DNA of 51,352 nt from a virus, in the IMG/VR virus record IMGVR_UViG_3300047655_000009, positions 1 through 51,352 of that record, one strand, 5' to 3'. The notes under the pieces are model-generated. The model saw nothing but the letters and a program-made list of their open reading frames with translations, was not told the origin of the DNA and ran no database searches. Position numbers and translations under genes: made by a program. Positions 4,861 to 41,444 of this stretch are shown one piece after another. Each line of letters starts with the position of its first letter. Positions within the stretch are counted from its first letter, which is position 1.

Positions 4861-5823
4861 ATGACCATAGAGCAAGCACAGGCATTTTTGATTGCCTTGA
4901 AAGCGCCGAACGTCCACATAAAGAACGATATTATAGTACAGTCGTCTTGTCCTCTGGCGGCGTGGACTCACCAGAGCCACAAGGATTTGAATCCTTCCTT
5001 TGCTCTGTTCTGCAAGCCTGGTGAGACCACCTATTACCATTGCTTCACATGTGGCGATGGGTCTGCCGAAGACCTGATTGGCGCGATTGGCATGTATGCC
5101 AAGGATGACCTGTCTAGCTATGACTTGAAGGCCGCAAGGCTAATCCTGGAAAACGAGCAGTTTGTAGTTCCCCTGCCTGAGTACAGTGAGGGAGTGCCCA
5201 AGCAACAGGTGTTTGAGGCATGGCCTGAGTGGTGGCTTGAGAGCTTTCAGACTGTGGCCTATAGTCAGCCGTCCCTTGATTACTTAGCAAGTCGCAAAGT
5301 TACGCCGGATGAGGCTCAAGAGTTTGAGCTTCACTACGACCATGTGCGGCAGATGATCGTCTTTCCCTACTGGAGTGTGTATGGCAAGTTTGCTGGTGCC
5401 AGGGGAAGGTCTATTTTGCCTGGGGTGGGTGGTGCTAAGAAGCACTATGACTACAAGTGGAACCAGAGGAACAACTCGAAGCTGACTTGGTACAACGAGC
5501 AGTGCCTGAATTTACCTGGGCCAGTGGTTGTAGTTGAAGGCCAGTATGATGTTTTGCGGGTTTGGAAGAGGTGGAAGAAGGTTGTCGGTAACCTGACGGG
5601 TTTGGTGGTAGAGGCCAAGATTCAGAAATTGTGTGAATCTGAGATGCTGATCCATATCCCTGATGCAGACCAAACAGGTGAGCGGAGTGTAGAAGGCTAC
5701 ATGGATGCTGCAAAAAGGTGTGGGTTGAAGTACAGAAAAATCGATGTAGGAGAAGGCGTGAAAGACCCCGGAGACTGCCATGAAGATTTCCTCTATGACA
5801 AGATTATGGAGGAATTATCTTGA
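4861..5823 (+). CDS. DNA primase, CHC2 zinc finger plus TOPRIM
   Basis: 320 aa. The N terminus has a CHC2-like finger: C30, H37, C61, C64, with DLNPSFALF between as in DnaG-type primases. The TOPRIM domain follows: VVVVEGQYDVL with the metal-binding glutamate at about 226, then IPDADQTG with Asp 268/270 and a later DPGD. It should lay RNA primers for the DnaB fork. At 320 aa it is much shorter than bacterial DnaG, with no helicase-interacting C-terminal domain visible. The -35 of the next promoter overlaps its stop codon. Confidence 0.9.
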   Translation: MTIEQAQAFLIALKAPNVHIKNDIIVQSSCPLAAWTHQSHKDLNPSFALFCKPGETTYYHCFTCGDGSAEDLIGAIGMYAKDDLSSYDLKAARLILENEQFVVPLPEYSEGVPKQQVFEAWPEWWLESFQTVAYSQPSLDYLASRKVTPDEAQEFELHYDHVRQMIVFPYWSVYGKFAGARGRSILPGVGGAKKHYDYKWNQRNNSKLTWYNEQCLNLPGPVVVVEGQYDVLRVWKRWKKVVGNLTGLVVEAKIQKLCESEMLIHIPDADQTGERSVEGYMDAAKRCGLKYRKIDVGEGVKDPGDCHEDFLYDKIMEELS

Positions 5824-5848
5824 CAAACTACCGGAATTGTCGTATCGT
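5820..5848 (+). promoter_or_regulatory. Promoter for the SSB gene
   Basis: TTGACA (5820-5825, overlapping the primase TGA), 17-bp spacer, TATCGT (5843-5848). It diverges from the main family in spacer and -10. Confidence 0.65.
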
Positions 5849-5856
5849 TGGATTAG

Positions 5857-5870
5857 GTCACTTGGGTGAC
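5857..5870. promoter_or_regulatory. Small inverted repeat in the SSB leader
   Basis: GTCAC (5857-5861), TTGG, GTGAC (5866-5870) lies between the likely transcription start and the ribosome site of the SSB gene. It could be an operator or a short RNA hairpin for autoregulation, as known for T4 gp32. Weak evidence. Confidence 0.3.
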
Positions 5871-5905
5871 AACAGAAATTGGTTTCGACCAAAAGGAGAA
5901 ACACT

Positions 5906-6673
5906 ATGGCATTAACATGGTTAAAGAAAGGTGCTGAGTCTGCGTCAATTGCGAAGCAGGATCAGCTTGATTACGAGAGGCGGAAAGAAGAGTCCGGGAA
6001 GATGTTCCGCTTCTGGTTGAACAAGGGAGACAGTGCAAAGGTCACGTTCGTTGATGGCGATCTTGACCCAACCGCTGGTGTCCTTTTGCCACCGAGGTAC
6101 TACGAGCACACCATCATGGTGAATGGCGACTGGGTGAACTTCGTTTGCCCGGAAAAGACCAACCCTGAATCGGGCGAGAAGTGCCCGTTCTGCGCTACCA
6201 ATGACCGGCCTTCGCTGGTTGCTTTGTTCACGATCATTGACCATCGCACCAGTTACGGCAAGAACGACAAGACCAAGGTGTACCAGAACCAGCGGCGTCT
6301 CTATGTGGCGAAGTCTACCACGTTCGAGATTCTGAACAAGCTGGCCGCGAAGCGTGGTGGTTTGGCTGGTCTTCGCATCGAGATTTCCAGGGTGGGTGAC
6401 AAGTCACCTGGTGTTGGAGACACGTTCGATTGTGAAGAGAAGCTGCCCATTGACCAATTGCAGGCATCCTACCAGATGGAAAGAACCGACCCGAAGACTA
6501 ACGCGAAGGTCAAGACAACGGCCTTCCTGCCAGCCGACTACGAGAAGGAAATCGTATATCGGACTGGCGAAGAGTTGGTCAAGATGGGCTTCGGCGGTCC
6601 GCAGGTTCCCGGTGCTGTGGCAAGCCCAGCAGGGCAAGCTGCTCCTACCGTGGACTACAGTAACCAGCTTTAA
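5906..6673 (+). CDS. Single-stranded DNA-binding protein, T4 gp32-like
   Basis: 255 aa. ATG 5906 is used, with AAAGGAG at 5892-5898, not the in-frame TTG at 5879. The N terminus (ALTWLKKGA) and the metal site match phage gp32-like SSBs: H68, C81, C93 and C96, and the His-x12-Cys spacing equals that of T4 gp32 (known for the family). An OB-fold-like region follows, and the tail is flexible (Pro/Ala/Gln). It should coat ssDNA at the fork and work with the recombinase and UvsW-like helicase downstream. Confidence 0.82.
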   Translation: MALTWLKKGAESASIAKQDQLDYERRKEESGKMFRFWLNKGDSAKVTFVDGDLDPTAGVLLPPRYYEHTIMVNGDWVNFVCPEKTNPESGEKCPFCATNDRPSLVALFTIIDHRTSYGKNDKTKVYQNQRRLYVAKSTTFEILNKLAAKRGGLAGLRIEISRVGDKSPGVGDTFDCEEKLPIDQLQASYQMERTDPKTNAKVKTTAFLPADYEKEIVYRTGEELVKMGFGGPQVPGAVASPAGQAAPTVDYSNQL

Positions 6674-14447: not shown

Positions 14448-15512
14448 ATGATTGCAACAAACTCCCTCGCTCGTAAGGAGAGGCTGGCATCGATCCTAGA
14501 TGCCGTAGCGTTAGTAGCTAAGTCTGGTAAGTACACAGAAGGTGCAGCTACTTTCAAACTCGAATCTGGCATGTCACACCTGATGCATGGCCAGCCAGCA
14601 ATAAGCGTCAACAGTCGGGGATCAGCTTTATTCGCTACTTATGATTTCTACTTCAGACGTGGTATCAGAAAAGTTGCCATCCAGAACAACAGCTTCGTAG
14701 CTGTTGGTGCAATGGCAGTACAAGCAGAGATGGAAGTCTATCTGGTAGACTCATCAGAAAAATGCCCAGCCATGGGCGTTGACGCATTACGCAAAGTCCT
14801 CAGTGACCATCCCGACATACAGCTAGTGGTAATCCAGCACGTAGGCGGCTGGCTTGCCAAAGACTATTACAAGATTCTCGATCTCTGCTCAGAGAAGGGT
14901 GTCTTAGTGATAGAGGACTGCGCCACAATGTTGGGTCACCCTGCCATAGGTAAAGACTACCTGCCCAGCGTAGGTACAGACGCAGCCATCTGGAGCTTTC
15001 AGCAAACCTCTTCACTCCCTGTAGGAGGCGGCGCGGTAATAACCACTATGAATCTGGAGTTGAGGAATCACCTGCGCTTGTTCCGTTCCTTTGGCAAACA
15101 CTGTACAGCAGTACAAGTAATGTATGGTGAGGGCCTAGACTTAAGGATGTCAGAATGGGAAGCAGCCATAGCCTGTGTACAGTTGGATAGTATTCAAAAC
15201 ATCATAGAGGCTCGCAAGCGAGATTTCGCAATGCTTGAGTCCATAGCGCCATGTCTCCTAGAGGGTGAAACATCCTACCAATGCTACCCTGTACACCAAG
15301 AAGACACGGCCTCCAGAAAAACTGCTCCCTCCTGCTACAGTCTACAAGAACAGTTGATTTCGACATTGTTAGCTAGTCGCTTTGTGGCTGGCAATTTGGA
15401 ACACAGCTATGCTTGGAGTCAGGCCCATAAGTGCCTTCCAATTGGCGAGGGCTTGTATGACGACACACCGAGAGAGGAAGTCTTCAAGGTGTTACATAGA
15501 GCGTCAAGTTAG
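14448..15512 (+). CDS. DegT/DnrJ/EryC1-like protein lacking the PLP lysine
   Basis: 354 aa. The fold of sugar aminotransferases is recognisable: an N-terminal SVNSRGSALFATY segment, VLVIEDCATMLG with the pyridine-binding Asp157, and IWSFQQTSSLPVGGGAVI. In active enzymes this last segment reads SF..K...TGEGG; here the lysine position is Ser188 and GEGG is altered to GGGA, so PLP Schiff-base chemistry is unlikely. Codons (gta, cta, aga) differ from the neighbours, hinting at separate acquisition. It may be a regulatory or sugar-binding paralogue of the 37127 protein. It ends before an inverted repeat. Confidence 0.7.
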   Translation: MIATNSLARKERLASILDAVALVAKSGKYTEGAATFKLESGMSHLMHGQPAISVNSRGSALFATYDFYFRRGIRKVAIQNNSFVAVGAMAVQAEMEVYLVDSSEKCPAMGVDALRKVLSDHPDIQLVVIQHVGGWLAKDYYKILDLCSEKGVLVIEDCATMLGHPAIGKDYLPSVGTDAAIWSFQQTSSLPVGGGAVITTMNLELRNHLRLFRSFGKHCTAVQVMYGEGLDLRMSEWEAAIACVQLDSIQNIIEARKRDFAMLESIAPCLLEGETSYQCYPVHQEDTASRKTAPSCYSLQEQLISTLLASRFVAGNLEHSYAWSQAHKCLPIGEGLYDDTPREEVFKVLHRASS

Positions 15513-23641: not shown

Positions 23642-24688
23642 ATGCTCACGCTGCACCCGAATTTGACGCATAAAGCGCAACAGTGGTCTGAAGACAAGAC
23701 GTTACACCTTGCTGTTGCTTACTCGAACCCGCTTAGGTGGCGCACCAGGCGCGAGTTGTTCAATGACTTCAGGGCCGAGATGGAGAAAAAGGCTAACGTC
23801 AAGTTGTACATTGGAGAATTGGCGTTGGGTGAAACGCATTTTGAAGTAACAGAAGCAGACAATCCCCAGCATGTTCAGTTGAGAACAAAGTCGATGATGT
23901 TTCATAAGGAGAACATCCTGAATGAGGTGATTCGTCGCTTTGATCCTGAATGGAAGTATGGCGGCTATGTTGATGGCGACTTTGTGTTTGTTCGCCATGA
24001 TTGGGGTCTTGAAGCTGTTCATCAGTTGCAATCAAGTGCATGGGTGCAGTTGTTCTCGCAGTACACGAACTTGACTGCAAGGGGTTATGGTGGGGGCATT
24101 CCGGCTGTAGAGCCAACTAGATCGTCCTTCGCTGCCACGTACATTGGCAACGGCCATAAGGTGATAAGTGGCACTTTGACTGCATCTGGTGGTTTTCCTG
24201 GCACTGGCAAAGTGTACGAAGATAAGGAGCCTAAGTCTGAATGGGTTCCCGTAGGAGCGACAGGTGGTGCCTGGGGATTCACTCGCTGGGGTTTCGAGAC
24301 TGTCGGTGGTCTTATGGATCACTGCATCCTGGGCCATGGTGATTGGTTCATGACGTTTGGCCTGGTGTCAGAGCCGACTGCTGGTGATGTTGCCAAGAGT
24401 CCGTACCACCCAAATTACACGGCCATGATTACTGCATGGCAGGAGAAGGCCAAAGCTCTGAACAAAAGTATTGGTGTGTTAGACTGCTACGCCCTGCACC
24501 ATTTTCATGGCGATATGAAGAAGCGTGGCTATGGTTCAAGAGACCAGATTCTGGTGCAGCACAAGTTCGATCCGTTGCTAGACCTTAAGAAGAACTCGCA
24601 AGGAATTTGGGAGTTCACTGGCAACAAGCCTGGGCTACGTGATGCTGTTCACAAGTATTTGAGGGAGAGGGATGAAGATGCCAGATAA
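23642..24688 (+). CDS. GT-A fold glycosyltransferase
   Basis: 348 aa. KSMMFHKENILNEVIRRFDPEWKY is the helix preceding the metal motif, followed by GGYVDGDFVF with D111-G-D113 as a DxD-type site. Further on, GATGGAWGFTRWGFETVGGL and LGHGDWFMTFGL match the acceptor side of galactosyltransferase-like enzymes. It should transfer a sugar from a nucleotide sugar; acceptor unknown (host polysaccharide, virion protein or modified DNA). It lies 11 kb before the sugar cluster. A one-mismatch TGCAAT box is internal. Confidence 0.7.
   Translation: MLTLHPNLTHKAQQWSEDKTLHLAVAYSNPLRWRTRRELFNDFRAEMEKKANVKLYIGELALGETHFEVTEADNPQHVQLRTKSMMFHKENILNEVIRRFDPEWKYGGYVDGDFVFVRHDWGLEAVHQLQSSAWVQLFSQYTNLTARGYGGGIPAVEPTRSSFAATYIGNGHKVISGTLTASGGFPGTGKVYEDKEPKSEWVPVGATGGAWGFTRWGFETVGGLMDHCILGHGDWFMTFGLVSEPTAGDVAKSPYHPNYTAMITAWQEKAKALNKSIGVLDCYALHHFHGDMKKRGYGSRDQILVQHKFDPLLDLKKNSQGIWEFTGNKPGLRDAVHKYLRERDEDAR
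24027..24040. repeat. TGCAAT box 12 (one mismatch)
   Basis: TGCAATCAAGTGCA inside the glycosyltransferase gene. Identical in sequence to box 23. Confidence 0.65.
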
Positions 24689-25269: not shown

Positions 25270-25824
25270 GTGACCTGTATAGTTGGCGTGATTGGTAATG
25301 GCGCGGTTACTCTTGGTGGTGATTCTGCGGCCACTAATAGTTCCTTTGAACAAGATACGCGCCTAGATGCCAAGGTGTTTAAGCGTGGCCCGTTCGTCAT
25401 TGGCTATGCGGGTTCGTTTCGTATGGGCCAGTTGATGCGCTTTAAGTTGAAAGTGGATGAACAGAAGTCCAGCATGGATGACTATGAGTTCATGGTCACT
25501 GTTTTCGCAGAAGCCGTCAGGCAGTTGCTAAAAGACTATGGTGTTGCCGGTAAAAAGGAAGAAGTTGAAAGTGGCGGTCAGTTCTTGATTGGATACAGGG
25601 GCAAACTGTACGTTATGGAAGAAGACTATAACGTAGGCATCGTGGCAGAAAAGTATGCCGCAATAGGTGGTGGCTCTGAGATAGCAAAGGGTGCCATGTT
25701 TGTTCAATCAGAAAGGCTGACCGTAAGAAAGCGCATTTTGAAGGCTTTAGAAGCCAGCGCGAGATTCCATGCCGGTACGTCAGCACCGTTCACGTTAGTG
25801 AGCATGAATGGAGGCTCTAAGTGA
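25270..25824 (+). CDS. Proteasome beta/HslV-like Ntn hydrolase
   Basis: 184 aa from GTG 25270. After removal of Met the nucleophile Thr1 starts TCIVGV; GGDSAAT supplies Asp17 and DAKVFK supplies Lys34, close to the Thr1/Asp17/Lys33 set of proteasome beta subunits and HslV. GYAGSFRMGQL and AAIGGGSEIAKGAM are typical later strands. Stand-alone Ntn proteases of this type occur in some phages with unclear substrates. No HslU-like ATPase is seen nearby. It may process virion proteins or degrade host factors (inference). Confidence 0.8.
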   Translation: MTCIVGVIGNGAVTLGGDSAATNSSFEQDTRLDAKVFKRGPFVIGYAGSFRMGQLMRFKLKVDEQKSSMDDYEFMVTVFAEAVRQLLKDYGVAGKKEEVESGGQFLIGYRGKLYVMEEDYNVGIVAEKYAAIGGGSEIAKGAMFVQSERLTVRKRILKALEASARFHAGTSAPFTLVSMNGGSK

Positions 25825-34649: not shown

Positions 34650-34688
34650 ATAGGTAGACTATTTAGGCGTCCCAACGGAGTGCGACCC

Positions 34689-35294
34689 GTGTTGATAGCT
34701 CTACACCAGCCAGATTTTATGCCGTGGCCCGGCTTCTGGAGGAAGTATGCCAGAGCCGACAAGTTTGTGATCTATGGTGGCTCACCGTTCACCCGTAGAG
34801 ACACGCAGAACCGTGTGAAGTTAGACGGCACCTGGTTAACCTTGCCTGTGGTGAAGGCTGACCGTGACACTCTGAACTCAGAAATGCAAATAGCCGAAGG
34901 GGGCGTTCAGCATGTAATCGATGTGCTGAAGTCCAAGCATAAGGTGTGGCCCCTCTTCAAGAGGGTGGAGCCTGTGGTGTCTTTGATGGAGCAGCTAAGG
35001 GACACGACATCTATGATGGCGTTGAATGTAGCCCTTTTGCAATTGATTGCACAGATGCTCGGTATGCCTGACAAGTTTGTTCTGAATTTTGAGCACCCTA
35101 AAGGTGAAACAGCAGATGAAAGACTGTGGAATCTGTTGCAGAGCACTGAAGATGGTGGGGTTTATGTTGCCGGTCAAGGTGGAAAGAACTATATGGGCAA
35201 CCCGCCAGCAGGCTGGACCGTGGAGTTCATTGACTCAAGCACCTGTCAGGATAGTTCCGTAGTAGAACTAATTGGAAAGGGCCTGTATGACTAA
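34689..35294 (+). CDS. WbqC-family protein
   Basis: 201 aa from GTG 34689 (AACGGAG at 34673-34679). The start LIALHQPDFMPWPGFWRKYA, followed by ADKFVIYGG and QNRVKLDGTWLTLPV, is the WbqC signature. WbqC-like proteins sit in O-antigen and capsule clusters and are thought to join sugar modification, though their reaction is unsettled. It is the first gene of the cluster. A TGCAAT box is internal. Confidence 0.85.
   Translation: MLIALHQPDFMPWPGFWRKYARADKFVIYGGSPFTRRDTQNRVKLDGTWLTLPVVKADRDTLNSEMQIAEGGVQHVIDVLKSKHKVWPLFKRVEPVVSLMEQLRDTTSMMALNVALLQLIAQMLGMPDKFVLNFEHPKGETADERLWNLLQSTEDGGVYVAGQGGKNYMGNPPAGWTVEFIDSSTCQDSSVVELIGKGLYD
35038..35051. repeat. TGCAAT box 18 (TG core, exact)
   Basis: TGCAATTGATTGCA in the WbqC-like gene, read as LQLIA. 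Confidence 0.9.
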
Positions 35295-35907
35295 GTGGGG
35301 TTTGTATTACGCGCATAAGGCTGATGCCTTCGCTTACACTGAGCGTTGGCGCGACGACTGCTTGCAGATTCTGCACAGGCTTCCTAAGCAAGGAACGATT
35401 GTAGACTTCGCCTGCAACACTGGCAGGTTTATTGGCCATGCTCGTGTGTATTCTCCGCAGGCTAAGTTTGTAGGCATTGACCTGAACGAGTGGGCGCTAG
35501 ACATAGCCAGGAGGCAGAACCTAGAGCCTGTTGCGCGAAAGAATCCTGCTGCCTTCTTTGACTCGATAGTAGGCATCGAGGCCGATTATGTAGTGATGAT
35601 GCATTGTCTCCCCCAGTTCGAGAAGCCTGAAGAGACATTGGCCGAGATTTGGTCTGCTTTGAAACCTGGTGGCGGCATTTCGGTGGTGATTCACAACCGT
35701 CTGAATGACTATTTGTGGGCTGTCCCGAACCTGTTTAACGGCTACAAAGCCGACGAGACCATCACGAAGAATTACAGCCTGAACGAGTTGAAGTCAACAA
35801 TGAAGGATGCTGGCTTCCTGTGTGATGAAGCCTATGCCTTCGGCAGTGAGTGGCTGCCTGATTTTGTAAAGCCAAGATTGGCGTTCCATGGAAGGAGACC
35901 GGCGTGA
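35287..35907 (+). CDS. SAM-dependent class I methyltransferase
   Basis: 206 aa from ATG 35287, overlapping the WbqC-like gene by 8 nt. Motif I TIVDFACNTGRFIG (about 37-50), the acidic ribose binder in FVGIDLNEWA (D65), and YVVMMHCLPQFEKPEETLAE as the motif IV region. It probably methylates a sugar or sugar precursor in the cluster. Confidence 0.78.
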   Translation: MTKWGLYYAHKADAFAYTERWRDDCLQILHRLPKQGTIVDFACNTGRFIGHARVYSPQAKFVGIDLNEWALDIARRQNLEPVARKNPAAFFDSIVGIEADYVVMMHCLPQFEKPEETLAEIWSALKPGGGISVVIHNRLNDYLWAVPNLFNGYKADETITKNYSLNELKSTMKDAGFLCDEAYAFGSEWLPDFVKPRLAFHGRRPA

Positions 35908-37130
35908 GCGAGTTTTTCCCAGGTGTAACCCCTGTGCTGTCTTCTGCGGCTATGTTTGGAGAGGCTGAGAAGAAGCTAATGCACGCCAGTATTGACTCTG
36001 GCTGGTTGACCAGCGGCGATTATGTGGCCAAGTTTGAGCATGACTTCGCCAAGGCTACAGGGCATGATTATGCCCTAGCCTGTAACTCAGGCTCAAGTGC
36101 CAACTTGATTGCTGTAGCCATGATGGTCGAGGCTGGTATATGGAAAAAGGGCGATGAGATTCTGTGCGTGGCTGCCAGCTTTCCGACCACAGTAAACCCA
36201 CTGCTGATGTATGGGTTGGTGCCTGTTTTTGTAGACATAGAGCTTGGCTCGTACAGCGTGAACCAAGAGGAACTGAAGGCCGCAAGAAATAATAAGACCA
36301 GGGGTGTGATGATTGCCCACACGCTTGGCTCGCCATACGACCTGGATTGGATGGCCGATTTCTGTTCCCACTGGAACCTGCCCATCATTGAAGATTGCTG
36401 CGATGCCTTGGGTAGTCGATTCAGGGGGAAAGATGTCGGTAGTATAGGACATGCCGCAACGTTTAGCTTTTACCCAGCGCACCACATCACCACTGGTGAA
36501 GGTGGCGCAGTTTGTTTGAATAACCCGAATTTGATGCGAATCGCAAGATCGGTGCGAGACTGGGGTAGAAGCTGCTACTGCCTTTCATCCCAAGAAGGCA
36601 TTTGTGGCAAGAGGTTTGAGCAACAGCTAGGAACACTGCCGTTCGGTTTTGACCACAAGTACACGTACAGTGCCTTGGGTTACAACCTGAAGATGGCCGA
36701 GGTGTCTGCTGCCTGTGGTATTGCTCAAGTTGGAAGGCTGTTTGAGTTTCACCAGCAACGTAAACTGAACGTCCAGTATTACAACGAAGCCTTTGCCGAC
36801 CTGGAGAACGAACTGATATTGCCAAGAGGCATTGATGGAGCCGACCCGTCCTGGTTCGGCTACCCGATAACGATCAGGAAGACTGGGTTGCGCCGAGAGC
36901 TACAGATGTTCTTGGATGACTGGAGGATTTCTACCCGGTTGATCTTCGGAGGAGACCTGACCAGACAGCCCTACATGCAAGGCCGCAATTTCAGGATAGC
37001 GAGCACGCTGGAAGTAACAGAAAAGGTGATGAACGATGCTCTGTGGCTAGGTGTTTACCCCGGAATCACGAAGACTATGATTGATTTCGTGTCTAGCTGT
37101 GTTCACGAATTTTTTAGGAGCCACCAATGA
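35904..37130 (+). CDS. rfbH: RfbH/E1-type CDP-4-keto-6-deoxyglucose-3-dehydrase
   Basis: 408 aa from GTG 35904. PLP fold of the DegT class, but SFYPAHHITTGEGG has His193 where aminotransferases carry Lys, as in E1 (AscC/RfbH). Cys166, 224, 226 and 234 give C-x57-C-x1-C-x7-C, the spacing known for the E1 [2Fe-2S] cluster. RDWGRSCYC, CGKRF and DHKYTYSALGYNLKMAEVSA also match RfbH. It would remove the 3-OH of a 4-keto-6-deoxy nucleotide sugar, a step needing a reductase (E3); no such gene is in the window. Translationally coupled to both neighbours. Confidence 0.88.
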   Translation: MSEFFPGVTPVLSSAAMFGEAEKKLMHASIDSGWLTSGDYVAKFEHDFAKATGHDYALACNSGSSANLIAVAMMVEAGIWKKGDEILCVAASFPTTVNPLLMYGLVPVFVDIELGSYSVNQEELKAARNNKTRGVMIAHTLGSPYDLDWMADFCSHWNLPIIEDCCDALGSRFRGKDVGSIGHAATFSFYPAHHITTGEGGAVCLNNPNLMRIARSVRDWGRSCYCLSSQEGICGKRFEQQLGTLPFGFDHKYTYSALGYNLKMAEVSAACGIAQVGRLFEFHQQRKLNVQYYNEAFADLENELILPRGIDGADPSWFGYPITIRKTGLRRELQMFLDDWRISTRLIFGGDLTRQPYMQGRNFRIASTLEVTEKVMNDALWLGVYPGITKTMIDFVSSCVHEFFRSHQ

Positions 37131-38191
37131 AATTCTTTGAGCCAAGAATTACCGAGTTCGACATGAAGGCCGTATCCGATGCTGTGGGGAAGGGTGCTTT
37201 GGCCACAGGCGAGATAACGAAGGAATTTGAAGATGCCGTTAGGCAGAGGTATCGTTACAAGTATGCTGTGGCTGTTAATTCCGGTACGTCTGCGTTGCAA
37301 CTGATGTTGATGGCCGCAGGTATTGGCCCAGGTGACGAAGTAATTGTGCCTGCCTACGGCATTATGTGTACGGTGAATGCCGTGTTGTCTGCTGGGGCAA
37401 CACCTGTGTTTGCAGACATCGATAGGTGGAGCTACAACATCGATCCTACGAAGGTTGCTAAGTTGATTGGTTTGAAAACAGCAGCCATTTTAGCTGTATC
37501 TTTGTTTGGCGTACCTTGTGAGATGAGGGCTTTGCAGGAGGCTGCCGGTGACCTTCCTGTGTTTGAAGATGCTATCGAGTGTCTGGGAAGCAAGAGGGGA
37601 GGCAAGGCTATAGGTATTGATGCTGATGCCGCCTGCTTTGGCTTCTTCCCGAACAAGCAGATAACTACAGGTGAGGGTGGTTTAGTTGTTACTGAAGATG
37701 CGGCTCTGGCACGAAGGGTGATGAAACTACGGCAGCATGGTTATGGTGAGGTCTCAAGTTTGATGACCCCTGGCTATGGTTTCAACATGCGTATGCCTGA
37801 CCTGAATGCTGCTTTGGGGCTGTCCCAGTTGTCCCAGCTAGATCAAACTCAGGCTATGCTGCGGCAAGCAAAGAGGAAGTTGGATGCAAAGTTCCTTGTG
37901 TACCATAAGCAGGTGACGACACCTGGAGACTTCGCTACCGAGTTCGTTTATGTAATTGAGCTTCCAGGGAGTATTGACAAGGTTGAGTTCATGGCCGAAA
38001 TGGAGGCTCAAGGAATCCCGACGAGGGCTTACTTTAATAGCTTGCGGCATGAACCCCATGTTGCTATGTTCCGTGGTGATACCCCAGTTGCTGATGAGGT
38101 GGGAGCTAGGACTGTTGCCCTGCCGTTCCACTACAAGTTGACGCAGGAAGACGTTGAAAAGATTTGGATCGCTTTTGAGAGGTCTATATGA
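37127..38191 (+). CDS. DegT/DnrJ/EryC1 sugar aminotransferase
   Basis: 354 aa. NSGTSALQLMLMAAGIGPGD (PLP phosphate loop), PVFEDAIECLGS with Asp148, and FGFFPNKQITTGEGG with the Schiff-base Lys177 are intact, as in active 3- or 4-keto-sugar aminotransferases. Further FNMRMPDLNAALGLSQL is typical. It would aminate the keto sugar made in the same cluster. Start overlaps the RfbH stop (ATGA). Confidence 0.9.
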   Translation: MKFFEPRITEFDMKAVSDAVGKGALATGEITKEFEDAVRQRYRYKYAVAVNSGTSALQLMLMAAGIGPGDEVIVPAYGIMCTVNAVLSAGATPVFADIDRWSYNIDPTKVAKLIGLKTAAILAVSLFGVPCEMRALQEAAGDLPVFEDAIECLGSKRGGKAIGIDADAACFGFFPNKQITTGEGGLVVTEDAALARRVMKLRQHGYGEVSSLMTPGYGFNMRMPDLNAALGLSQLSQLDQTQAMLRQAKRKLDAKFLVYHKQVTTPGDFATEFVYVIELPGSIDKVEFMAEMEAQGIPTRAYFNSLRHEPHVAMFRGDTPVADEVGARTVALPFHYKLTQEDVEKIWIAFERSI

Positions 38192-38853
38192 AGAAGTTGT
38201 TTATTTCCCCGCACCCAGATGATGTTGAGATAGGTTGCGGGGGTTCCATTGCAAGATTTGTTGCTGGAGGCCATGTCTGTGACATCGCTGTGGCTGTTGG
38301 TGATGGTGATTTGAAGATGCGTCATTCTGGGGAGGTTGTCCCATTTCAGAAGCGTATCGATGAACAGCTTGCCGCAGCCGGGGTGCTTGGGGTAAGTACG
38401 GTTCACTGGCTGAACATAGCTAAGGCTGCCCATCTTGACACGGTGAGTTTGGCGGTTGGGACAACGGTTCTTGATAAGTTGCTGGCGGAAGAGAAGTATT
38501 CCGAGGTGTACATCCCGCTGCCCAGCTACAATCAGGACCACCAGTATGTTTGTGACATGTGCATGGCAGCTACTCGGCCACCGGGCAGGTACACCCTGTT
38601 TATGTATGAGCAGCCGACGCAGTTTCATGGTGTGCAATCAATTGCAACCTTCGCGTCCAGGTTCTATGTAACGTTTTCGCCAGCAGAGCAGGAAAAGAAG
38701 GAAAAGGCCCTTAGTTGTCATGTTTCCCAAGTAAAGGGAAGGCAAGAATCGATCACCGGGTTGCGTGGCCTGCGGTTGCTTGCAGAGTTGCGTGGCGCTG
38801 AAGTTGGCCGGATGTATGCTGAGATGTTTCACCTGTTGAGGCAAGTGATATGA
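38188..38853 (+). CDS. PIG-L/LmbE-family deacetylase
   Basis: 221 aa. FISPHPDDVEIGCGGS (H9, D11, D12) is the zinc-binding motif of the family, and the later LPSYNQDHQYVCDM supplies a third His. Family members remove acetyl groups from N-acetyl sugars. In this cluster it may expose an amine on a GlcNAc-type intermediate. A TGCAAT box is internal. ATGA overlaps at both ends. Confidence 0.88.
   Translation: MKKLFISPHPDDVEIGCGGSIARFVAGGHVCDIAVAVGDGDLKMRHSGEVVPFQKRIDEQLAAAGVLGVSTVHWLNIAKAAHLDTVSLAVGTTVLDKLLAEEKYSEVYIPLPSYNQDHQYVCDMCMAATRPPGRYTLFMYEQPTQFHGVQSIATFASRFYVTFSPAEQEKKEKALSCHVSQVKGRQESITGLRGLRLLAELRGAEVGRMYAEMFHLLRQVI
38633..38646. repeat. TGCAAT box 19 (CA core, exact)
   Basis: TGCAATCAATTGCA in the deacetylase gene, read as VQSIA. 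Confidence 0.9.
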
Positions 38854-40301
38854 AGGTGCTTTTTGACTGCATTGTAACCCAGAATCCGGCCAGTAAGTGT
38901 TCAACGACTGCCCAGTTCGTTACGTTGGCAGAACTGTTGCTCAAGCATGAAGACGTGTTTATCTACTGGCCAGTGCCTGACCGTCTTGAGAGTGCTGATT
39001 TTCTGACCACGTTTCCGCAAGACCCAAGAATCAAGTATTTCAAGGTGCCCCAAGTGAAAGACAGAATGCGTGAGTACACTCATGTGTCGCATGAGTTTGA
39101 AGCGATTCTGTCGTTCTCAGGAGTAGCGTGGGACTGGGATGTAATGGTAACTGTGAGGACGCCACAGGTGCCTTGGATGAAAGTTCACGCTCTGTCGCCA
39201 CGTAATGTTGGCCGCAGGGACTGGTCGAAGCGTATCCTGGTCATTGAAGACATGATGGTTTTGAGCAAGAAGCCTACGATAGCTCAGTCCTGTATAGACA
39301 TCCAAGACAGGCAGACCATCGAGGGGTATTTTGCTGCCGACAAGGTGTTGGTGCCCGCCTACCATGAAAAAGGTTGGGTGCTAGAGATTGCTAGACAGCA
39401 TTTTTCCATGGCACGAGTAAGGGACTTGTCTGGTAAGTTGCAAGAGGTCTGTCACTTAACGCTGGAAGACTTCCATCTGAAAGATGAGTTCAAGTACCAG
39501 CCTGGTAGAAAGATGAACGTGGTGTACATCGGGCGCTTGGAAAGAACGAATGCCAGGTTGGAAGTTGTCAGCGGAGTGCTGGCGAACCAGTTCATTCTGC
39601 ACAGTGACGTGATTAACCCGATTGTCTGCACGGTAAGTCCAGATGGTAGTCCTGGTGAATCTAAAGTTGACACAGACGTTATTGAGATCATTCGTCCTTC
39701 AAGGCAGGAGTTCTATGACTTATCGGAGAATACGTTTGATCTTGGGGTGTTTTTCCATATCGATATTGAGTTGTCCATGTCGATGCTGGAACCTGTGTCC
39801 AAGGGAATGCCAGAGATTGTGAAGAAGGCCCCGTGGTCGGTGGGTATGTTTGGGACTGATTACCCGTTTTATGTGAACACTGAGTCTGAAGCCTATGCCC
39901 TGGTGTCTGCCTTCGCCAAAGACTATGAAGGCATGTATGCCAAGTTTGCAGCCTGGTTTGAGAGTTGGTTCGTGCCTGTTTACACAGACCGTATTGCGAA
40001 GCAAGGCTTGTACAGCCAGCTTGAGAAGCTGATTCTTGAGGAGCAAAAGCCAGACGCTACCGGCTCAATGGCCAGAAACGAAGTTGTGGGCCTGCTCAGT
40101 AAGTTCCCAGAGTTTGTGATGATGGACAAGATCAAGGAGCTTGCAGACACCAGTCTCACCTCGCTAGGCACCAAAGTAGGCCAGGAGTTCGATGAACGAG
40201 GTTTGGTTTGGAGCACGGCCTGGAATGAGTTTAGGCTGGCTTTGAAATTGTTCCATGGGTACAAAGATGCTAGTGTTGAGTTAGGTCACTTGAGGCGCTA
40301 A
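38850..40301 (+). CDS. Putative GT-B glycosyltransferase
   Basis: 483 aa. The middle carries a GT-B-like second domain: MNVVYIGRLERTNARLEVVSG at its start and a later LSMSMLEPVSKGMPEIVKKA, corresponding to the sugar-nucleotide-binding E-x7-E area of GT4 enzymes. The first third is a divergent acceptor domain, and the C-terminal 100 residues are helical. It likely transfers the cluster's finished sugar. Assignment rests on fold pattern and location. Confidence 0.6.
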   Translation: MKVLFDCIVTQNPASKCSTTAQFVTLAELLLKHEDVFIYWPVPDRLESADFLTTFPQDPRIKYFKVPQVKDRMREYTHVSHEFEAILSFSGVAWDWDVMVTVRTPQVPWMKVHALSPRNVGRRDWSKRILVIEDMMVLSKKPTIAQSCIDIQDRQTIEGYFAADKVLVPAYHEKGWVLEIARQHFSMARVRDLSGKLQEVCHLTLEDFHLKDEFKYQPGRKMNVVYIGRLERTNARLEVVSGVLANQFILHSDVINPIVCTVSPDGSPGESKVDTDVIEIIRPSRQEFYDLSENTFDLGVFFHIDIELSMSMLEPVSKGMPEIVKKAPWSVGMFGTDYPFYVNTESEAYALVSAFAKDYEGMYAKFAAWFESWFVPVYTDRIAKQGLYSQLEKLILEEQKPDATGSMARNEVVGLLSKFPEFVMMDKIKELADTSLTSLGTKVGQEFDERGLVWSTAWNEFRLALKLFHGYKDASVELGHLRR

Positions 40302-41444
40302 ATGACTTTGGAAGAACTAGGGCTGCCCAAAAACATGCAGGCATTGATTGGCAGAAAGCTGAAGGAAAAGGTACTGCCTGTTGAGAGCCACATTGAGGGC
40401 AAGTCTGTATTAGTGACGGGTGCGGGAGGGTCGATTGGTTCGCAGTTGTGCGTGCAATTGATTGCAATGAAGCCGCGCCTGCTCGTTATGTATGAAATGA
40501 CAGAGTTTGGTCTGTATCAGATTGACCAGCAGCTTCGAGAGTTAAAGACCGCCACAAGAATAGTTGCTATTCTAGGCAATCTGACATCAAGAAGGCAGAT
40601 TCAGAGTCTCCTGAAGACCTACAAGATCGACATGGTGTATCACGCTGCTGCCTACAAACATGTACCCCTGGTAGAGTGCAACCCGATTGTTGCCATGGAG
40701 AACAACCTGTGGAGTGCCAAGAACCTGGTGGACGCCTGCCGGGATTGTGACGTAAAGGAGTTCACGCTAGTGTCTACGGACAAGGCAGTGAACCCTACGA
40801 ACGTTATGGGTGCCACGAAGAGGCTTGCCGAGTTTGTCACGTTGTGTGGGGATAGACCGTACAAGGTGGTTCGCTTCGGAAATGTGTTGCTGTCTTCTGG
40901 AAGTGTGGTGCCTTTGTTCTTCAGGCAGTTAACGCAGCACTTGGAAGTGACGATTACAGATGCCGCAGTGAGTCGCTATTTCATGTCGATCAGTGAGGCT
41001 GTTGGGTTGATCTTGCAAAGCTGCATGGTGCCAGGGTCTATCTGTGTTCTAGACATGGGAGAACAGATCAAGATTGAGGCTGTGGCCAGAAGGCTCGCAG
41101 GGCTGTTGAACGAGGCCATAAAGATCAAGTATATTGGTTTAAGGCCAGGTGAGAAGATGTATGAAGAGCTTGCACTTGGCCACAACCTGAAGAGCACTCG
41201 GCATCCGTGCATTAACGTAGCCCTGGAGGAAGTGCCGTCCTATGAGCAACTGTCAGCATGGCTGCGTCAGGTGAAGAATCATTGTGATAGCGGAGATTTA
41301 GGTGGTTTAAGGACCCTGCTACAAGAGATTGTGCCAGGTTATGTGCCCGCTTGTGGGATAGTTGATTCGGTGTGGCTTGAAAATAACGTGTTCACGGTGC
41401 CCGCAGCATTTGATGACTGCTTTGCACCAGCTTCGTGCAATTGA
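40302..41444 (+). CDS. CapD/FlaA1/WbpM-type nucleotide-sugar 4,6-dehydratase
   Basis: 380 aa. Rossmann motif VLVTGAGGSIGSQLC (37-51), YHAAAYKHVPLVECNP, VSTDKAVNPTNVMGATKRLA with Ser158-Thr-Asp and M169-x3-K173, RFGNVLLSSGSVVPLF and GLRPGEKMYEEL are all family marks. Met in place of the usual Tyr is known for the WbpM-like group. It lacks the membrane domain of WbpM, so it is a soluble form. It would turn a UDP-sugar into the 4-keto-6-deoxy intermediate, the first step for the dehydrase and aminotransferase. Two TGCAAT boxes lie in the gene. Confidence 0.88.
   Translation: MTLEELGLPKNMQALIGRKLKEKVLPVESHIEGKSVLVTGAGGSIGSQLCVQLIAMKPRLLVMYEMTEFGLYQIDQQLRELKTATRIVAILGNLTSRRQIQSLLKTYKIDMVYHAAAYKHVPLVECNPIVAMENNLWSAKNLVDACRDCDVKEFTLVSTDKAVNPTNVMGATKRLAEFVTLCGDRPYKVVRFGNVLLSSGSVVPLFFRQLTQHLEVTITDAAVSRYFMSISEAVGLILQSCMVPGSICVLDMGEQIKIEAVARRLAGLLNEAIKIKYIGLRPGEKMYEELALGHNLKSTRHPCINVALEEVPSYEQLSAWLRQVKNHCDSGDLGGLRTLLQEIVPGYVPACGIVDSVWLENNVFTVPAAFDDCFAPASCN
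40453..40466. repeat. TGCAAT box 20 (TG core, exact)
   Basis: TGCAATTGATTGCA in the dehydratase gene, read as VQLIA, directly after the Rossmann glycine motif. Confidence 0.9.

Follow-up and report, generated by a model that had tools for sequence, protein, structure and literature searches.

A phage-borne gene for a predicted E1/RfbH-type 3-dehydratase in a sugar operon with a PglF/WbpM-type 4,6-dehydratase

The DNA analysed here (hereafter the window) is the entire IMG/VR virus record IMGVR_UViG_3300047655_000009, 51,352 bases in length, in which no end repeats were found when the record was tested for completeness. Its TerL protein is 57-62% identical to those of the Stenotrophomonas Delepquintavirus phages, whose genomes are ~96 kb in size, and of contig L182. 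Among the genes of phage DLP5 that were tried, the replication genes, TerL and ligase matched in the window, while no match was obtained for the DLP5 portal, major tail, tape measure, fibre and DNA polymerase genes, suggesting that the record lacks about half of the genome. As such, the absence of a gene from the window proves little. Elsewhere in the window, a candidate proteasome-like N-terminal hydrolase is encoded at 25270-25824 (Bitscore: 22.1; Pfam cut-off: 22.4), while a 348 amino acid protein (23642-24688), which lacks a Pfam or PHROG match, contains a YVDGDF sequence resembling the DxD-type glycosyltransferase motif.

A run of seven genes (34680-41444) encodes, in order, a WbqC-like protein, a methyltransferase, an E1-type enzyme, an aminotransferase, a PIG-L deacetylase, a glycosyltransferase and a dehydratase (Table 1). 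The genes lie on one strand, and the four successive junctions between 35904 and 40302 are 4-bp overlaps or have 0 bp between the genes. The GC content is even along the operon and, like GC3, in line with that of the rest of the phage. When the operon was scanned for promoters and terminators, no more sites were obtained than in shuffled sequences. No relative of the WbqC-like protein was found in the PDB, while the glycosyltransferase belongs to a family common to phages DLP3/DLP5, RHph_Y1_11, RcZahn and KarBoss. The dehydratase encoded by the last gene carries a TDK-x8-M-x3-K signature (TDKAVNPTNVMGATK) at residue 159, and the Y-x3-K form is absent. By published signature definitions, TDK-xn-M-x3-K denotes the PglF/WbpM type and Y-x3-K the CDP-glucose 4,6-dehydratases (PMC8987622). 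Besides the E1-type gene, the window holds two further DegT-fold genes, namely the lysine-type gene of the operon and one at 14448-15512, the product of which has a serine in place of the PLP lysine (SFQQTSSLPVGGG). A relative of the latter protein in contig L182 (positions 1-1143) is 56% identical and has the same serine (SFQQTSILPVGGG), while the DLP5 relative keeps the lysine.

Table 1. Genes of the sugar operon and predicted functional residues of the E1-type enzyme
Feature	Coordinates	Strand	Basis
WbqC-like protein, first operon gene	34680..35294	+	Pfam WbqC 86.2 bits (cut-off 21.3)
SAM-dependent methyltransferase; start perhaps ATG at 35287	35272..35907	+	Pfam Methyltransf_23 56 bits
Predicted E1/RfbH-type nucleotide-sugar 3-dehydratase	35904..37130	+	NCBIfam RfbH equivalog; nearest PDB 3bcx; fold match; tree
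C166 codon, predicted [2Fe-2S] ligand (E1 C193)	36399..36401	+	Alignment to 3bcx
H193 codon, PLP lysine replaced (E1 H220)	36480..36482	+	Alignment to 3bcx
C224, C226 and C234 codons, predicted [2Fe-2S] ligands (E1 C251, C253, C261)	36573..36605	+	Alignment to 3bcx
DegT/DnrJ sugar aminotransferase, normal lysine (FFPNKQITTGEGG)	37127..38191	+	Pfam DegT 290 bits; nearest PDB perosamine synthase 3bn1; motif
PIG-L family deacetylase, PHPDD motif intact	38188..38853	+	Pfam PIG-L 53 bits; diacetylchitobiose deacetylase matches; motif
Putative glycosyltransferase	38850..40301	+	tblastn in phages; alignment; relatives annotated glycosyltransferase
PglF/WbpM-type UDP-GlcNAc 4,6-dehydratase	40302..41444	+	Pfam Polysacc_synt_2 308 bits; nearest PDB 5bju, WlaL (PglF); signature

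The E1-type gene encodes a 408 amino acid protein from a GTG start codon, which is preceded by an RBS-like site (AAGGAGA-like) and overlaps the preceding methyltransferase gene by 4 bp. A preliminary description of this gene, the coordinates, frame and residue numbers of which proved exactly right, had identified it as an E1-type 3-dehydrase with H193 in place of the PLP lysine and cysteines in the pattern C166-x57-C224-x1-C226-x7-C234. The histidine is the first of a PAHH sequence, and the cysteines at residues 166, 224, 226 and 234 have exactly this spacing. The best match among solved structures is the E1 dehydrase of Yersinia pseudotuberculosis (PDB: 3bcx; phmmer e-value: 2e-124), in which residues 193, 220, 251, 253 and 261 align, over a gap-free stretch, with residues 166, 193, 224, 226 and 234 of the window protein. 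We take C193, C251, C253 and C261 to be the cluster ligands of E1 and H220 to be its catalytic residue. The four cysteines, the exchange of lysine for histidine and the H220K variant of E1 are confirmed in a review of these enzymes (PMC8987622). The histidine and all four cysteines are retained in 80/80 bacterial and 80/80 viral relatives, with H193, C224 and C226 forming in part the patterns by which relatives were sought, while C166 and C234 did not. Approximately 24-28 N-terminal residues of E1 are absent from the window protein.

Assignment to the family is supported by several further comparisons. The window protein passes the curated RfbH equivalog model (NF011936; Bitscore: 517.3; cut-off: 423) and scores 418 bits against E1, compared to 168 bits against ColD, a GDP-4-keto-6-deoxymannose 3-dehydratase of the same fold with the same replacement of lysine by histidine. 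ColD lacks a cluster, however, and the ColD type was rejected because the window protein retains all four cluster cysteines; the latter protein also resembles E1 far more closely. An AlphaFold model, for which 37 sequences (window, viral and bacterial) served as input, has a mean pLDDT of 90.8, and its top PDB fold matches are the E1 structures 3bb8 and 3bcx (TM: 0.93), followed by ColD (TM: 0.86). Trees of 87 rows and of a stricter 50 rows place the protein within E1/RfbH and apart from the lysine-bearing aminotransferases, a grouping that the preliminary description had named as evidence against its assignment and which the trees reject. Within E1/RfbH, where the bacterial sample was picked for closeness to the window protein, it adjoins the main cellular clade (support: 100/94) and falls outside both the large viral clade and the cyanophage clade, with its exact sister being unsure because the branch is long. 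The highest identity, 50-51%, is to Duganella, while the closest viral contigs among the matches listed share 43-46%. As judged from its sequence, the gene is an intact and well-conserved member of the E1/RfbH-type 3-dehydratases.

The preliminary description had also drawn attention to the phage setting. The gene is indeed phage-borne, but this is not exceptional, as such genes are also found in several cyanophages and on IMG/VR contigs numbering in the hundreds. At least 595 E1 relatives in IMG/VR were confirmed by a motif-directed scan, and all 80 of the viral relatives considered above were kept from these; the relatives were detected only by an alignment-based scan, and a single-protein scan of IMG/VR with the window E1 found none. 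An E1-type gene is also found in the cyanophages RN05-S and S-H68 and the single-cell virus AG-345-D19, with the S-H68 copy annotated as a CDP-4-dehydro-6-deoxy-D-glucose 3-dehydratase, and rfbH is listed among viral metabolic genes in published virome studies (PMC10653327, PMC11295528). Carriage of an E1-type gene by phages is already known and not new.

In 50 E1-containing viral records, no CDP-glucose 4,6-dehydratase exceeded the cut-off and no reductase domain was found, while a ferredoxin passed its cut-off in 1/50, namely cyanophage RN05-S. An RmlB-like gene (>260 bits) is present in 34/50 of the records, with two passing the curated cut-off of 365. No strong PglF-type match was found in the 50 records, the best reaching 78 bits against the Pfam family, compared to 308 bits in the window. 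Given the lack of a CDP-glucose 4,6-dehydratase in these 50 records, viral E1 genes in general are seemingly uncoupled from CDP-glucose; the counts suggest that they are regularly separate from the CDP-glucose pathway and never occur with a reductase domain. The substrate implied by the common viral label of 'CDP-4-dehydro-6-deoxyglucose' enzyme may as such be wrong. The E1 genes of cyanophages RN05-S and S-H68 and of IMG/VR resemble that of the window in being phage-borne, in encoding the histidine and four cysteines and in their location in sugar clusters without a reductase. Their products are, however, only 36-46% identical to the window E1, most fall into separate clades, and the dehydratase partner in the 34 records is RmlB-like rather than PglF-type.

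A ColD-like protein of Synechococcus phage ACG-2014f (L011, positions 4914-6107) keeps the histidine and lacks the cysteines corresponding to C224, C226 and C234. Its gene is common in ACG-2014f cyanophages and adjoins genes for a GDP-mannose 4,6-dehydratase and an epimerase, and both kinds of 3-dehydratase are thus present in cyanophages. A further candidate phage relative, OR851175.1 (Salmonella phage S.Kent 1-2-1), was rejected, as this unverified contig of 2.6 kb encodes a protein that clusters with the products of cellular rfbH; this grouping, and a sequence deviating at a single position from the consensus of rfbG-linked copies, suggest that it is likely host DNA.

CDP-4-keto-6-deoxyglucose, the substrate with which the preliminary description had proposed to assay the enzyme, finds no support in the window. 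Neither rfbF nor rfbG was found in this approximate half of a genome, whereas the bacterial copies are located near rfbF in 75/80 cases and near a strongly matching rfbG in 69/80, and the sole 4,6-dehydratase of the window is that with the PglF/WbpM signature. Among the 80 bacterial E1 loci nearest to that of the window, a PglF-like match (>60 bits) lies beside only two. The window protein shares 44-46% identity, the same histidine and identical cysteine spacing with E1/AscC/RfbH (CDP-6-deoxy-L-threo-D-glycero-4-hexulose-3-dehydrase; 3bcx). Unlike the genes for the latter, however, the window gene is unlinked to rfbF, rfbG and E3 and is linked to a gene for a PglF-type UDP-GlcNAc dehydratase. 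Of 165 positions at which rfbG-linked RfbH proteins are near-invariant, the window protein furthermore differs at 41, compared to 0-16 departures in other bacterial copies. These departures may reflect an altered specificity, but simple fast evolution of the phage would also account for them.

Less probable, in our estimation, is that the enzyme functions as a textbook E1, for which CDP-4-keto-6-deoxyglucose would come from the host or from the part of the phage genome that the record lacks, and which would introduce a 3,6-dideoxyhexose into the O-antigen of the host or into a glycan of the phage. The score against the RfbH model, the incompleteness of the phage genome and the position beside a cellular RfbH clade whose members are mostly rfbG-linked are in keeping with this, while the lack of rfbF and rfbG, the 41 departures and the translational coupling of E1 to a UDP-GlcNAc-type pathway argue against it. 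The PglF-type dehydratase and the aminotransferase could also form a bacillosamine-type branch in which E1 takes no part. We know of no E1-type enzyme that accepts a 2-acetamido 4-keto sugar. For KasR, a PLP-dependent dehydratase of kasugamycin biosynthesis, a UDP-GlcNAc-derived sugar has, however, been proposed as the substrate (PMC8869731), which makes E1-type chemistry on a UDP-GlcNAc derivative plausible.

The nearest relative, contig L182, has the same glycosyltransferase and PIG-L genes just after TerL, but is without E1, and an RfbH-grade gene was found in 0/40 TerL-related records. A PIG-L/SDR/aminotransferase/methyltransferase/glycosyltransferase block adjoins TerL in DLP5, and a similar block is present in RcZahn. 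The TerL-adjacent blocks of DLP3/DLP5 and the related ones of RHph_Y1_11 and RcZahn share with the window an SDR, an aminotransferase, a methyltransferase and the same glycosyltransferase family, while the PIG-L deacetylase is common to the window, DLP3/DLP5 and RcZahn, but not RHph_Y1_11. Judging by gene names, these blocks are, however, without E1, a PglF-type dehydratase or WbqC. Such TerL-side blocks recur in varied form in Stenotrophomonas, Rhizobium and Rhodobacter phages, and probably, going by gene sizes only, in Vibrio phage KarBoss. For DLP3, its authors suggested, as an untested proposal, that the related glycosyltransferase modifies host LPS (PMC7326821). The sugar blocks of L182, DLP5 and RcZahn suggest that E1 joined a pre-existing sugar locus, while its absence from L182 and the 40 TerL-related records suggests that it is, in phage terms, a recent addition to this older locus.

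The same absence from TerL-related records, together with the long branch near cellular RfbH, might be taken to mean that the gene is a passenger, either host-derived or part of an assembly chimera, and has no role in the phage. We consider this highly improbable, as the frame is intact and preceded by an RBS-like sequence, the junctions on both sides of E1 overlap with phage genes, GC and GC3 equal those of the phage and phage-family genes such as TerL and ligase flank the operon on both sides. Moreover, identity to any cellular copy is ~50%, indicating that this is not recent host DNA.

The preliminary description had further noted that E1 depends on an electron-donating reductase (E3) and that none is seen in the window. 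The latter holds, with no Fer2 or FAD/NAD reductase domain being detected in this approximate half of a genome, but a dedicated E3 is not usually adjacent in any case, being located within 6 kb of 7/80 bacterial RfbH genes and accompanying none of the 50 viral ones. The absence of an E3 gene is the rule and represents no special gap. Ferredoxin or flavodoxin reductase pairs reportedly serve as partners of SpnQ, a dTDP-4-keto-2,6-dideoxyglucose 3-dehydrase (PMC8987622), and this precedent and the rarity of E3 linkage make the borrowing of host electrons likely. By description rather than by sequence, SpnQ is like the window protein a [2Fe-2S], His-type enzyme with no dedicated E3, but differs from it in substrate and host. 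SpnQ also transaminates without reductant when provided with PLP and glutamate (PMC8987622), and a corresponding main role for the window enzyme on a 4-keto sugar in infected cells would accord with the lack of a reductase in the window and the 50 viral records, but is highly improbable given the replacement of the lysine by H193, the lack of such activity in E1 and ColD under similar conditions (PMC8987622), the regular aminotransferase encoded next door and the retention of all cluster ligands, which selection for transamination would not require.

We give about even credence to the reading that the product of the gene is catalytically active as an E1-type 3-dehydratase and uses host electrons to deoxygenate C3 of a sugar, probably a UDP-GlcNAc derivative, in an amino-sugar pathway of the phage. 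In the sequence of steps that we infer, the PglF-type enzyme would oxidise UDP-GlcNAc at C4 and dehydrate it across C5-C6, most likely generating the substrate of E1. The latter would bind PMP non-covalently, with His193 acting as acid/base, and hold the predicted [2Fe-2S] cluster on C166, C224, C226 and C234. PMP would form a Schiff base with the 4-keto group of the 4-keto-6-deoxy nucleotide sugar, after which His193 would take a proton and the C3 hydroxyl would be expelled. Two single electrons, derived from a host ferredoxin, flavodoxin or host reductase and passed through the cluster, would then reduce the intermediate to a 3-deoxy-4-keto sugar. The aminotransferase would aminate C4, the methyltransferase may methylate the sugar, the glycosyltransferase would attach it to an acceptor and the PIG-L enzyme would strip the N-acetyl group.

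A more specific proposal, which is rather doubtful when taken as a whole, is that E1 has left the CDP-glucose pathway and acts on the PglF-made, UDP-GlcNAc-derived 4-keto sugar with electrons from host ferredoxin or flavodoxin. The product would be a 2,4-diamino-2,3,4,6-tetradeoxy sugar with a kasugamine-like deoxygenation pattern, which the phage would attach to the surface or DNA of either itself or its host.

This locus is of modest interest, on account of the unusual pathway setting of its E1-type gene and of the broader separation between viral E1 genes and the CDP-glucose pathway. If the substrate is indeed derived from UDP-GlcNAc, E1 chemistry would be extended to amino sugars, and the operon would provide a testable case of a radical-type deoxygenation performed by a phage on host electrons.
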